Shown here piece by piece: positions 22,272 through 35,756 of a DNA stretch of 64,000 bases. The DNA is taken from contig JAHHIA010000011.1 of assembly GCA_019359045.1 (NCBI GenBank), positions 186,001-250,000 of the forward strand, written 5' to 3'. The position numbers and the translations under genes were made by a program. The DNA is from Scytolyngbya sp. HA4215-MV1 (GTDB lineage: Bacteria; Cyanobacteriota; Cyanobacteriia; Leptolyngbyales; Leptolyngbyaceae). How positions within the stretch are numbered: the first letter of the stretch is position 1; the number at the start of each line of letters is the position of its first letter. Under the pieces are notes generated by a model. The model saw only the letters and a program-made list of their open reading frames with translations. It had not been told where the DNA came from and ran no database searches.

Positions 22272-24332
22272 TCAAGCCGATGCCCGTTTTGCCTGAGATG
22301 CTCTCAAATCTTTCTGCACTTCGTGATAAAGCGTCGGGTCTTCGCCTTTCAACCCAACCAAACTATACAAGCCCACCTTGCTGTCACGCCCTCGCAGAGG
22401 GTGTTCTCCCAAAAAGACGGCATCCACCTCTGTTTGAACTAATTCGTACAGACTATCTGTAATTAAAATGTCGGTGCCAAATTCTTTGGTGAGTCCTTCC
22501 ACCCGACTCGCAATATTCACCGTATCGCCAATGACAGTGTATTCCAAACGCTGAATCGAGCCGATGTTGCCTGCGATCACTTCACCAAAACTGATGCCAA
22601 TCCCATTAAATAAAATCGGTTGACCTTGTTGTTGCCATTGTTGCCTCAGGGTAACTAGTGCTTTTCGCATATTGAGTGCCGCTTTGATGGCGTTCAGAGC
22701 ATCCGCTTTTGCTCCTTGAGAAACTGGCGTGCCAAACTCTGCCATCACGGCATCGCCAATGAATTTATCAACAGTGCCTCTGGCATCGACGATCGCAGCC
22801 ACCATCACATTCAGGTAAACATTGAGTTGGGCAACTAGTTGTTCGGGCGGCAGTTTGAAAGAAAGGGTCGTAAAGCCGCGAATGTCGCAAAACATGACAG
22901 CAGCATTGATTTTGCGCCCCTGGAGCAATGCGCGAAAGTCTTCAGGTTGGTTCAAAATCTCTTGGACGATCGGAGCTGAAACGTACCGTTCCAGGGTGCG
23001 ACGGAGGTGGTGCTTTTCGAGTTGTTCACGAATGATGCCTGTCCCTAAATGCACTAAGCCGCTGAGCGCAATCAACAAAACGGGAACAGCAACAGGTATG
23101 ATCGCCCCCATCCCTATCAAGCTAACGTAGCCGATACCAGCCCAAGCCGCAGCGATCGCCAACGCCCACAAGGCTCTTTTGACAGGACGCTGCGAAATTC
23201 GACTCACAAACCCTGATGCCAAACTGACCCCAACCAAGATTAAGAGCCCCTGGTACAACGGCGAGGGAATGGCATCGGTGATCGCGCGATTTTCCATCAA
23301 TGTGGCGATCGCATGGGCATGAACCTCTACCCCTGGCATCAAAGTGGGATAACGCCAGTTTCCCGAAAAAGGCGTGCGATGCAAATCTTGCAGAATGGTT
23401 GCTGTCGGTCCAATGATGACAATTTTGTCTTTGAAAAATTTTCCCTTTTGGAGTGACGTTTGCCATTCGTGTGGCTCTAAGACATAGAAAAACGGAATCG
23501 AGGGAAAAGTATTGCGGGGTCCGTAGAAGAAAATTTCATTGCCTTTAGGAACTGGGTAGGGGATAGCAGCCGCTTGCAAGATTGCTTCGTCAAAGGAGGG
23601 TAAAGCTTTGCCTAACCCCAAAGGTTGAATGATTTGTTTTTGGTATTCACTGGCAAAGTGATGAATCCTACCATCCACATCGGGCAAATAGTTGATAAAA
23701 CCAGTGGACAGCAGAGGATTGGCTGCATGGTTGCCATTGGGAAACAAGGAAGCATCGGGCAGTACTCTTTGCGTCAGGGGACCTTGCGGAGTTTCCGAAT
23801 CAGCATACATGGCAGCCAGGGTGACTCGTCCCGGATAGCGCTGGAGAGTTTGCTTTAGGGCGACATCATCGGCTGCACCATAGATACTGGGATCGGCAAA
23901 AATTAGGTCGATCGCAACCGCTTTGGCTCCTGCTGCCATCAATCGGTCAATTGCTTTGGCATAGGCAATCCGCCGCCAAGGCCAAGACTCTAGCGGTTTT
24001 AAGTGAGCTAGCTTTTGTGGATCAGCTTGATAGCTTTGTCCTTGGGCCAGGGATTCTTCATCGATCGCCAAAATCACAATATTGTCCGGCGGTTTTACCG
24101 AACCCCGCATTTCGAAAAAGGTCGCCTGAGCTTGTCGCTCCAAATTGCTAACCAGGCGCAAGTCGAGGGCGGTAATCGTTGCACCCGTCAGGGTGCCCAA
24201 CGCAATCAACCAATAGCCTAACCACTTGAGGTTAAGCCATTTCCAACGATCGGTCAGTGCTTGAATGGTGAACTTTTTTTTGGACACGTTAGTGGGGCGA
24301 TCGTGACCTGATGATGTGCGATTCGCTGCCAT
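22272..24332 (-). CDS. CHASE2-domain class III adenylate cyclase
   Basis: A 686-residue membrane signalling enzyme. After a cytoplasmic start, one membrane helix (GYWLIALGTLTGATITAL) leads to a periplasmic CHASE2 sensor (about residues 60-370; NIVILAIDEESLAQ and AIDLIFADPS are typical). Three closely spaced membrane helices follow (about 370-440), then a class III cyclase domain from about 490. The metal-binding Asp residues lie in FCDIRGFT and KFIGDAVMAEFG. The Lys of VDKFIGDA and the Thr of VIGDTVNIASR match the adenylate cyclase pattern, so cAMP is the likely product. Downstream of FecR and barrel genes, it probably transduces an envelope signal. Confidence 0.92.
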   Translation of the reverse strand: MAANRTSSGHDRPTNVSKKKFTIQALTDRWKWLNLKWLGYWLIALGTLTGATITALDLRLVSNLERQAQATFFEMRGSVKPPDNIVILAIDEESLAQGQSYQADPQKLAHLKPLESWPWRRIAYAKAIDRLMAAGAKAVAIDLIFADPSIYGAADDVALKQTLQRYPGRVTLAAMYADSETPQGPLTQRVLPDASLFPNGNHAANPLLSTGFINYLPDVDGRIHHFASEYQKQIIQPLGLGKALPSFDEAILQAAAIPYPVPKGNEIFFYGPRNTFPSIPFFYVLEPHEWQTSLQKGKFFKDKIVIIGPTATILQDLHRTPFSGNWRYPTLMPGVEVHAHAIATLMENRAITDAIPSPLYQGLLILVGVSLASGFVSRISQRPVKRALWALAIAAAWAGIGYVSLIGMGAIIPVAVPVLLIALSGLVHLGTGIIREQLEKHHLRRTLERYVSAPIVQEILNQPEDFRALLQGRKINAAVMFCDIRGFTTLSFKLPPEQLVAQLNVYLNVMVAAIVDARGTVDKFIGDAVMAEFGTPVSQGAKADALNAIKAALNMRKALVTLRQQWQQQGQPILFNGIGISFGEVIAGNIGSIQRLEYTVIGDTVNIASRVEGLTKEFGTDILITDSLYELVQTEVDAVFLGEHPLRGRDSKVGLYSLVGLKGEDPTLYHEVQKDLRASQAKRASA

Positions 24333-30983: not shown

Positions 30984-31796
30984 TTACAAGCTGACCTGAT
31001 CGTGGGTTTCCTTTTCAGGGATATGTGCAACTGCTTGTAATCGCTCATAAGTTTTGACGGCGAATCCTGGAATCTTATCTGAGGAACCTTTTTTTGCCTT
31101 AACAGAACTTTCTAAATTCTGCCAAGTTAACCCCCGATCGGATTGTTTCCAATAGTGAATTGCAGCGATCGCAGCACTAATTTGGTTGCTTTGAGTATTG
31201 ATCTGCTTCAAAGCCATTTCGATCTCTTGATCTAATGCTGTTAGAAGATTAATTGGATGCTCTATCGTTCCGATGATGGGTCTTTTACGAAAAGCCCCGC
31301 CTTGCTGTTGGAGCGCATCAAGTTTTTCTAGAATCGTTTCCAGTGTACTGAGGTCTTGATGACTGCTGAGATGATCAATTCGATAGTTTAAAGTCTTTAA
31401 TTTTTCATCTAGATCACTTCTGATTCCACTCAGGATGGAAGTGGTGTGATTTTTAATTGAATCAATCGCAAGCTGAAGTTTTTGATCGAGTTTTTGATCA
31501 ATGAGAACAGCAATATCGGAGCTTATAGCAGCATCTATATTGTCCGCAGGAGGTAATGCTCCGTGAGAACCTTTTGCCAACAATTCCATTTCTGTACTTG
31601 CTGCGATCGCTTGCTTGTCGGTCAAGTCAAAGACCCATGCCCATACCTTTTCAATCTCTAATTCTTGAGCAATTTGCAACCAATCGGCACCATAAACTAA
31701 CTCGTACTCAATATCATCATCGTCATAGGCATCGGTACGTCTGACAATCAGCGAGATCAAATTGCTTTGATGATTTAAGAGACTTTGTTCAATCAT
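30984..31796 (-). CDS. ParB/Srx-like N-terminal domain protein with coiled-coil tail
   Basis: A 270-residue protein. Residues 8-60 resemble the ParB N-terminal domain: [13 protein letters not shown], then [36 protein letters not shown] (compare VVRR..YELVAGERR..AAxxLG..xVxxxVxDLxDxxA). The usual Arg-Arg pair is replaced by Asp-Trp. A long coiled coil ([30 protein letters not shown]) and a helical C-terminus with GLTWQNLE follow. The ATG at 31796 overlaps the stop of the upstream gene (8 bp), so translation is coupled. Likely partner of the nuclease-ParA protein; function unknown. Confidence 0.6.
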
Positions 31797-32493
31797 TATC
31801 AATCAGCAGTACTCGTTTTCCCAACTGGGTCAACATTGCAGCTAGATTAATCGTTAAAGTTGTTTTGCCTACCCCACCTTTATTATTGAAAACAGTAATA
31901 ATCATAGACTTAGATCCCTTTTTAGAAGATGGGTCAATACTTTCGGATTGTTTTCTAAATAGTTTCAACATTTCCTGATTTTGAAATGCATTTGAAATCA
32001 AATTTGCGAATTTTAAATGAATTTGTTGTTGGCTATGATCCAATGCGTTTCTAACCTTTAGACAAGTTGCTTTGCTCAGCAACTTATAAATTAAGCCAAA
32101 ATTTTTGACCAAGGTTGATTGAGAATATTCAGAAATTGTGACAACCTGCCCCTGATATTGATAAAGCAGATGAAATAGATAGCCATTCGTCAGAAGACCC
32201 AGCGTCGATCTTGAGTGCCGCATGTATTCACTAATTTGCCAAATACTTTGAGAAATTTTTTTGTCAGGTGCTTTTACTTCAATGACTAAATAGGGTGGAT
32301 GATGACCCAATAGAGTGGGAGGATGTACCAAGAAATCTGCTTTATTTTTGCCAATTCCAGCCTGAGATTTCCAATCCGTATTACGATAGCCAAGGATGTT
32401 AAGCAGTGGCAGCACAACTTTATGTGCAATATCGGACTCATTACTTTGGGGTGTGATAGAGGTCAAAAATCTGAATTGATGAGAGGTATTCAA
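31789..32493 (-). CDS. Restriction-like (HSDR_N) domain fused to a truncated ParA P-loop
   Basis: A 234-residue fusion. Residues 15-110 show the PD-(D/E)XK pattern: Asp53 in KADFLVHP, Glu72-x-Lys74 in [11 protein letters not shown], then [14 protein letters not shown]. Residues 197-234 are a ParA start: [16 protein letters not shown] (deviant Walker A), [10 protein letters not shown], ending RVLLIDND. ParA proteins normally continue 150 or more residues with Walker B; here the frame stops right after this strand. The start is TTG at 32493 with an in-frame stop just upstream and no ribosome site. It could be a natural short form, or the scar of a deletion joining a ParA gene to the downstream ParB-like gene. 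Confidence 0.65.
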
Positions 32494-34506: not shown

Positions 34507-34715
34507 GACTAATAGGGTTCCGTAAAGCGATTTGAGGAGTGAGTGAGCATTTGCTGCTAGCAATGAGCCATTCGCGATTGAGTCGTTTTTGGTCAGCAAC
34601 TCACCTTTTTGATTCTCGCAAACCAAAGGGCAGTTTCGACGGAGAAACATGTAACGGTTTCTCTCGTTTTCTCACAAATCAACTTCCATGCCCCTCGCCC
34701 GTTCACCCCTCCACC

Positions 34716-35756
34716 CTAAAACCCTAATCGCGTCACAATTCGATCACGAAAAGACATGGCAAACAACATCAGGCGCTTTAAGGCATAGCAGCGTTGCATG
34801 GGAGACGATCGCATCTCTGTTTCCGGTTCTGGTGCCACAATACTCTTCACTTCGTAAAGGCAATACTCCCCACTTTTGCCGGGTATCTCCACCTGAAAGC
34901 ATTGATTCACTGTGACCTTTTCTATCACTTGTTGATACGCTTCTTCGGAAATTAGAAATTGAGTGCCGAGCTTTTTGTTGGCAGATTCGATGCGGCTTGC
35001 CAGATTGACCGCATCACCGATCGCAGTCATTTTGGGATTTTTAGGATCGCCGATCGTGCCCAGCACTACACAGCCATAGTGAATGCCAATGCCAATTCGC
35101 AACCGCTGTCCATAGAGGGTTTCCAGCGAAGGATTCAAAGCTTCCACTGCTTTCAACATGTCTACCCCGGCGCGAATCGCTTCTTCAACAGCGCGATCGG
35201 GTTGCTCGACCCCAAACAACGCCATGAACCCATCGCCCATGTAGACATTAATCATGCCGTGATGACGGTTGATCACCTGCGCCATGCGCTGAAAATAGCG
35301 ATTAAGGACGTAAATGACGTCATAGGGCAACAAAAGCTCGGAAAAGGCGGTAAACCCACGAATATCGGCAAACAAGATGGCAACGTCTTTCTCTTCCCCC
35401 ATCATATGGGGTGTCACCTTACCAAAGGCTTGTCCTTGAAACAGTTCCATGTCTTCGGCATCTAGGGACAGTCGCCGCAGGGTAATCCGTCCCTCGCTTT
35501 GAATGGCAGTCTGACAAGCCAAACGTACTGTTGGGTCAAGACCCAGTTGTTTGGCTAAGGCCGTTTCAGCGACAGTGCGGGGGGCACAGTGCTCCTGTCC
35601 CTCCAAAATGATCACCCGACAGGTCGAACAACGGGCATTGCCACCGCAGACATGGGTATGGGGAATTCCGGCTGCCAGGGAGACATCTAGCAATGTATAG
35701 GCATCTTGTTCGGCATCAACCAGCTTTTGATCGGGCAGATAGTAGATTTGTGACAT
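34716..35756 (-). CDS. [2Fe-2S] ferredoxin domain fused to class III nucleotidyl cyclase
   Basis: A 346-residue soluble protein. Residues 1-95 are a plant-type ferredoxin fold with cluster ligands Cys37, Cys43, Cys46 and Cys81 (CGGNARCSTC...RLACQ). Residues 122-320 are a class III cyclase with metal Asp131 (LFADIRGFT) and Asp175 (YMGDGFMALFG). The two residues that normally select adenine differ: the Lys position reads Val171 in MINVYMGDG, and the Thr position is Ala in AIGDAVNLASR. So substrate and activity are uncertain, although the metal site is intact. A redox-controlled cyclase is a reasonable inference. It lies 209 bp upstream of the ilvD start on the same strand, which does not suggest a functional link. 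Confidence 0.88.
   Translation of the reverse strand: MSQIYYLPDQKLVDAEQDAYTLLDVSLAAGIPHTHVCGGNARCSTCRVIILEGQEHCAPRTVAETALAKQLGLDPTVRLACQTAIQSEGRITLRRLSLDAEDMELFQGQAFGKVTPHMMGEEKDVAILFADIRGFTAFSELLLPYDVIYVLNRYFQRMAQVINRHHGMINVYMGDGFMALFGVEQPDRAVEEAIRAGVDMLKAVEALNPSLETLYGQRLRIGIGIHYGCVVLGTIGDPKNPKMTAIGDAVNLASRIESANKKLGTQFLISEEAYQQVIEKVTVNQCFQVEIPGKSGEYCLYEVKSIVAPEPETEMRSSPMQRCYALKRLMLFAMSFRDRIVTRLGF

Follow-up and report, generated by a model that had tools for sequence, protein, structure and literature searches.

What does a class III nucleotide cyclase make when the lysine that usually contacts its substrate base has become a valine? The question is raised by a gene in the 64,000-nucleotide stretch of Scytolyngbya sp. 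HA4215-MV1 DNA analysed here (the window), in which a 2Fe-2S ferredoxin is fused to a class III cyclase domain (Table 1). A preliminary description of the locus had taken both base-contacting residues to be changed and had offered, among its readings, a different cyclic nucleotide and an inactive enzyme.

Domain layout and active site

Both domains score above the curated Pfam cut-offs; the nearest NCBIfam model for the ferredoxin is fdx_isc (ISC type), which it matches far below that model's own cut-off. The four cluster ligands described earlier do lie in the Fer2 domain, as Cys37, Cys43, Cys46, and Cys81, and are invariant across the 34 homologues of our main alignment (A2). A short helix (residues 100–110) joins the N-terminal ferredoxin to the catalytic domain. 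At the other end of the protein, the alignment and the AlphaFold2 (AF2) model place a C-terminal helix in the cyanobacterial members, missing from the other aligned members, which may dock to a membrane or a partner. No membrane anchor or haem-binding region was found in the window protein, in which Fer2 begins at residue 12 and leaves no room upstream.

Table 1. Window coordinates of the ferredoxin–cyclase gene, its domains, and its active-site residues
Feature	Coordinates	Strand	Basis
Fer2–class III cyclase fusion, 346 aa	34716..35756	-	ORF, Pfam domains, homologues
2Fe-2S ferredoxin domain, residues 12–85, ISC/adrenodoxin-like spacing CX5CX2C...C	35502..35723	-	Pfam Fer2, 43.8 bits
Class III nucleotide cyclase domain, residues 121–296	34869..35396	-	Pfam Guanylate_cyc (PF00211), 92.3 bits, and AF2 fold
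C-terminal helix, residues 320–343	34728..34799	-	AF2 secondary structure and alignment
Asp131, metal ligand 1	35364..35366	-	Invariant, 34 homologues
Val171, replacing the base-contacting Lys	35244..35246	-	Alignment and structure offsets
Asp175, metal ligand 2	35232..35234	-	Invariant, 34 homologues
Thr244, second base-contacting residue, kept	35025..35027	-	Aligned with Thr of Spirulina CyaC and CyaB; invariant, 34 homologues
Asn251, transition-state residue	35004..35006	-	Invariant, 34 homologues
Arg255, transition-state residue	34992..34994	-	Invariant, 34 homologues

The active site was read by aligning the protein with Spirulina CyaC (1wc1), Pseudomonas CyaB (3r5g), Synechocystis Cya2 (2w01), and the other cyclase of the window, at 22272–24332, which is a CHASE2–cyclase by Pfam and has Lys and Thr at the base positions, as the preliminary description had said. 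That description was also right about both metal aspartates and about Val171, which aligns with the Lys of CyaC and CyaB and the Glu of Cya2; the transition-state pair, Asn251 and Arg255, had gone unremarked. The protein thus has the fold, the two metal Asp, and the transition-state Asn and Arg of a class III cyclase, and of the canonical Lys/Thr pair of adenylyl cyclases it lacks the Lys and has the Thr. The reported change of that Thr to Ala comes from reading Ala249 of GDAVN as the base residue: the true position is Thr244, whose context MTAIGD aligns with FTAIGP in Spirulina CyaC and YTIIGR in CyaB. In the place of Ala249, Spirulina CyaC has Ser, CyaB has Glu, and the CHASE2–cyclase has Thr; a position that varies in this way among genuine adenylyl cyclases does not mark specificity. 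An altered pocket is therefore supported at the first base position, where Val/Ile is fixed in the clade, and not at the second.

The AF2 monomer model (mean pLDDT 85.7) folds like active cyclases, with solved class III enzymes matching it at Z 22–27: Cya2 2w01 at Z 27.3 (rmsd 1.6 over 190 residues), CyaB 3r5g at 27.0, Spirulina CyaC 1wc1 at 26.0, and Rv1900c of M. tuberculosis (1ybu) at 22.9. Cya2 E488, together with K1057 of Spirulina CyaC and N342 of Rv1900c, which we take to be the residue numbers of the Lys position, all land on model residue 171 when offsets are carried from the first aligned residues on the assumption of a gapless stretch. The structural alignment gives the same register as the sequence alignment, which places Val171 at the Lys position; the number E488 is confirmed in PMC5995499.

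The closest solved relative is Cya2, the best PDB match by sequence (5.6e-31) as well as by fold, which has the MGDG motif in common with the window protein but places Glu, Gly, and Tyr as base-selecting residues where Val171, Thr244, and Ser254 stand, and carries a CHASE2 sensor rather than Fer2. Spirulina CyaC (1wc0–1wc6) and Pseudomonas CyaB agree with the window protein in metal Asp, Asn, Arg, and second-base Thr, and differ from it in their Lys and their sensors. In Rv1900c (1ybt, 1ybu), Asn342 occupies the Lys position by alignment offset, as Asn does in most of the soluble ferredoxin–cyclase family; unlike the window protein, it has an alpha/beta-hydrolase partner domain, Asp as the second base residue, and a His in place of the transition-state Asn (PMC4886424).

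Residue 171 across the family

The 33 other sequences of A2 are 44–66% identical to the window protein and come from cyanobacteria, deltaproteobacterial bins, Polyangium, a Lysobacteraceae bin, a planctomycete bin, and others. D131, D175, T244, N251, and R255 are invariant throughout, like the four Cys, while position 171 is Asn in 29, Val in 4, and Thr in 1. Only four differences separate the Val sequences from the rest: position 171 itself, a one-residue insertion at 88, and positions 91 and 287, of which the last three are not known base contacts.

Within the order, the gene was found in 11 of 42 genomes (8 of 19 genera), with Val in ten members and Ile in one, and with Thr244 and every catalytic residue kept in all 11. 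The Val/Ile group forms a single clade (support 99; our trees are quick ones with SH-aLRT support only). In the wider set, Lys at 171 is found in the membrane-anchored forms and some short forms. The Asn, Val/Ile, Asp, Ala, Leu, and Thr forms make up a lineage set apart from most Lys forms (support 90–93); it comprises 46 sampled sequences (support 93), nearly all lacking Lys, and Asn is the residue in most of its other soluble members, from several phyla. One Lys-bearing member (L102) sits inside this lineage, so a reversal to Lys or a second loss is possible. The preliminary description had named the Lys/Thr pair in close homologues as the mark of a strain-specific change; of that pair the homologues retain the Thr only, the Lys being replaced by Val/Ile in the 11 members of the order and by Asn or Thr in the 30 others aligned (29 and 1). 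As judged from these alignments, Val171 is a fixed property of its clade and not a strain-specific change.

The family also holds forms in which other parts of the active site have changed. A cyanobacterial sister clade (L016–L022), present in 7 of 291 sampled genomes, keeps the four ferredoxin Cys but has lost the second metal Asp (Asp175), mostly together with Asn251 or Arg255 (for example L022:1486-2484 (+) and L017:1501-2517 (+)); genome G116 carries one intact copy (L014) and one such copy (L022). By their residues, these are ferredoxin–pseudocyclases with a dead cyclase domain. Short ferredoxin–cyclases from Pseudomonadota (L101, L103–L107, L109) carry Asp in place of the Lys and, in most of them, Ala in place of the Thr (SDVAGDGMLILFG ... 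AAIGDTVN), with metal and transition-state residues intact; they carry the double change that had been ascribed to the window protein and are a stronger candidate for changed specificity. Two further members, L058:4801-6114 (+) and L108, have three domains, Fer2–cyclase–Rieske, in which two different 2Fe-2S domains flank one cyclase, the Rieske domain being confirmed by Pfam in L058 and read by eye in L108.

In the long Pseudomonadota members (L111–L125, ORFs of 557–616 aa), hydrophobic segments precede Fer2, which is followed by a Lys/Thr cyclase; both the Fer2 and the cyclase domain are homologous to those of the window protein. We liken them to S. meliloti CyaC, a link drawn from architecture and residue spacing rather than from the CyaC sequence itself: the spacing of 74 between K410 and T484 in CyaC recurs in the long forms checked. 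Work by Wissig in 2019 is said to have found a binuclear Fe-S (2Fe-2S) cluster in that enzyme. CyaC is redox-regulated and makes cAMP, its activity tracking the quinone pool via two haems in a six-helix (6TM diheme-B) anchor (PMC10463352); the window protein differs from it in having neither the anchor nor the haem-binding region, and Val for Lys.

Constraint, product, and competing readings

Whole-gene pairwise dN/dS is 0.02–0.08 over six pairs, three of which have dS > 1, so that the weight is carried by the low-divergence pairs, likewise at 0.02–0.08. Mean pairwise identity among the intact cyanobacterial members is 67% in the cyclase domain and 63% in Fer2, unlike the dead sister clade (39% and 59%), and therefore indicates strong constraint on the cyclase domain. 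Strong purifying selection and intact catalytic residues together favour an active cyclase, which the window protein likely is. The earlier suggestion of inactivity is correspondingly disfavoured, with metal and transition-state residues invariant, the cyclase at least as conserved as the ferredoxin, and dN/dS low.

We regard the window protein as probably a functional redox-linked class III cyclase of the soluble ferredoxin–cyclase family, which most likely makes cAMP from ATP, its affinity altered or its selectivity loosened. Redox control fits the architecture and may operate as follows. The protein would act as a homodimer whose active sites lie between the two subunits; a cellular electron donor would oxidise or reduce the 2Fe-2S cluster, and the change would shift the joining helices so that the catalytic dimer opens or closes. 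Thr244 and the shape of the pocket would hold the substrate base in place of Lys, giving cAMP from ATP at lower affinity or with looser selectivity than a Lys/Thr enzyme, and Val171 would be a clade-wide tuning of the pocket with no loss of function. Having no membrane anchor, the protein would need a soluble donor of electrons, which in a cyanobacterium could be the photosynthetic ferredoxin pool.

The assignment of ATP as substrate draws on characterised enzymes. Rv1900c, with Asn at the Lys position, was reportedly found by Sinha in 2005 to be an adenylyl cyclase with minor guanylyl activity; as it makes mainly cAMP, the Lys is not indispensable. To our knowledge there is no characterised precedent for a hydrophobic residue at this position, so the preference for ATP is one that we infer. 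In S. meliloti CyaC, the paired substitutions K410A and T484A leave very little activity (PMC10463352), so a protein without the Lys might be much less active. Guanylyl cyclases have Glu at the first base position, and Cya2 uses in addition a Tyr close to the two transition-state residues (PMC4215837, PMC7384201, PMC4886424); with Val171 and Ser254 in these places, the window protein lacks the known route to guanine selection. The literature searched, mostly outside subscription journals, held no study of soluble ferredoxin–cyclases and no report of their activity, cluster, or redox response, which is weak evidence of novelty.

A doubtful alternative is that replacement of the Lys marks a change of product, to cGMP, another cyclic nucleotide (cUMP, cCMP), or promiscuity, the base pocket having been reshaped first by Asn and later by Val/Ile. 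The Lys is gone in nearly all of the 46-sequence lineage with catalytic residues intact outside the dead clade, its sub-lineages have fixed different residues (N, V/I, A, D, L, T), and the best PDB match by both measures is a guanylyl cyclase. Among the host cyclases with a readable motif, the Lys is missing only from the ferredoxin–cyclase and from two Cya2-like enzymes, which have Glu and Asp there. Against this stand the invariance of Thr244 and the lack of the Glu and Tyr with which Cya2 selects guanine; a Val side chain, moreover, is incapable of hydrogen-bonding guanine N1/N2. For a pyrimidine product, the PADLOC PycC models give the ferredoxin–cyclase 81.9 bits, but they give 92.5 bits to the window's other cyclase, an ordinary Lys/Thr one, so that the match carries no clear signal for pyrimidines; nor did any Pycsar-like effector (PycTM or PycTIR) adjoin the gene, whose neighbours are ilvD, a PCC-domain protein, a PBP, and a CHAT protein. 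A Pycsar assignment was dropped as unsupported after this control. The earlier proposal of a different cyclic nucleotide is thus possible but not the best supported, given the kept Thr244, the missing Cya2 residues, and the Rv1900c precedent. It is unlikely that the Lys-replaced soluble ferredoxin–cyclases as a whole (Asn, Val/Ile, Asp, or Ala by clade) make a main product other than cAMP; if they did, motif-based annotation would be missing a family of redox-to-cGMP or redox-to-pyrimidine-cNMP signalling proteins.

It is quite improbable that the cyclase domain has little or no catalytic activity and instead senses redox state as a dimerisation or regulatory module that partners an active cyclase. 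The dead cyanobacterial clade, with Fer2 intact, shows that this route has been taken in the family, and the double mutant of S. meliloti CyaC is a second point for it (PMC10463352); in the window's own clade, however, metal and transition-state residues are invariant under strong purifying selection, quite unlike the relaxed constraint of the dead clade. Least credible of all is that an ordinary Lys/Thr adenylyl cyclase mutated in this strain alone or was misread in sequencing: nothing was found in favour of this, and the homologues refute it, with Val or Ile throughout the order's members in 8 genera and Asn in the majority of the wider family.

Genomic setting and significance

On the same strand, ilvD starts about 66 bp after the gene (gap 34650–34716); it encodes dihydroxy-acid dehydratase, normally an Fe-S enzyme. 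It also adjoins the gene in two other loci (L025, L146), with the order swapped, and is absent beside it in the other loci of the Val clade and of the family, where flanks are short, often 1.5 kb. We do not claim an operon with ilvD, given the swapped order and its absence elsewhere. No neighbourhood was conserved across the family loci compared; fabG and thioredoxin genes accompany the cyclase in Microcoleus, a conservation confined to that group. A scan for promoters and terminators at the gene gave nothing above shuffled sequence. Elsewhere in the window, 30984–32493 (−) encodes an HSDR_N-like domain followed by the start of a ParA-type ATPase that ends early, and a second ORF, lacking a Pfam match, overlaps its end; such a layout points to truncation, a frameshift, or an unusual fusion.

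The 6.6 Mb host genome has 23 matches to the cyclase family, which we compared as separate stretches, three of them having no usable motif. Its 14 cNMP-binding domains are possible receivers, none linked to the window gene. Two host cyclases, L069 and L070 (G000 C23:251523-252065 and C31:2136-2648), lack the Lys, have Asp/Thr and Glu/Thr pairs with Cya2-like motifs, and are candidate guanylyl cyclases.

Redox-linked cyclases are already known as a kind. What is newly described here, on the evidence of sequence, is a soluble class III cyclase, linked to a ferredoxin, in which Val/Ile is fixed across the clade in place of the adenine-contacting Lys and the Thr is kept. The Lys/Thr (or Lys/Asp) pair is the routine label for class III adenylyl cyclases, and a widespread lineage has replaced its Lys, mostly by Asn and then again clade-specifically, with the rest of the active site intact. 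As the sensor is a built-in electron carrier, the family offers a natural test both of the need for the Lys and of the switching of a cyclase by a 2Fe-2S cluster, with the dead sister clade as a natural comparison, and in a setting of oxygenic phototrophs, where the redox state of ferredoxin reports on photosynthesis.
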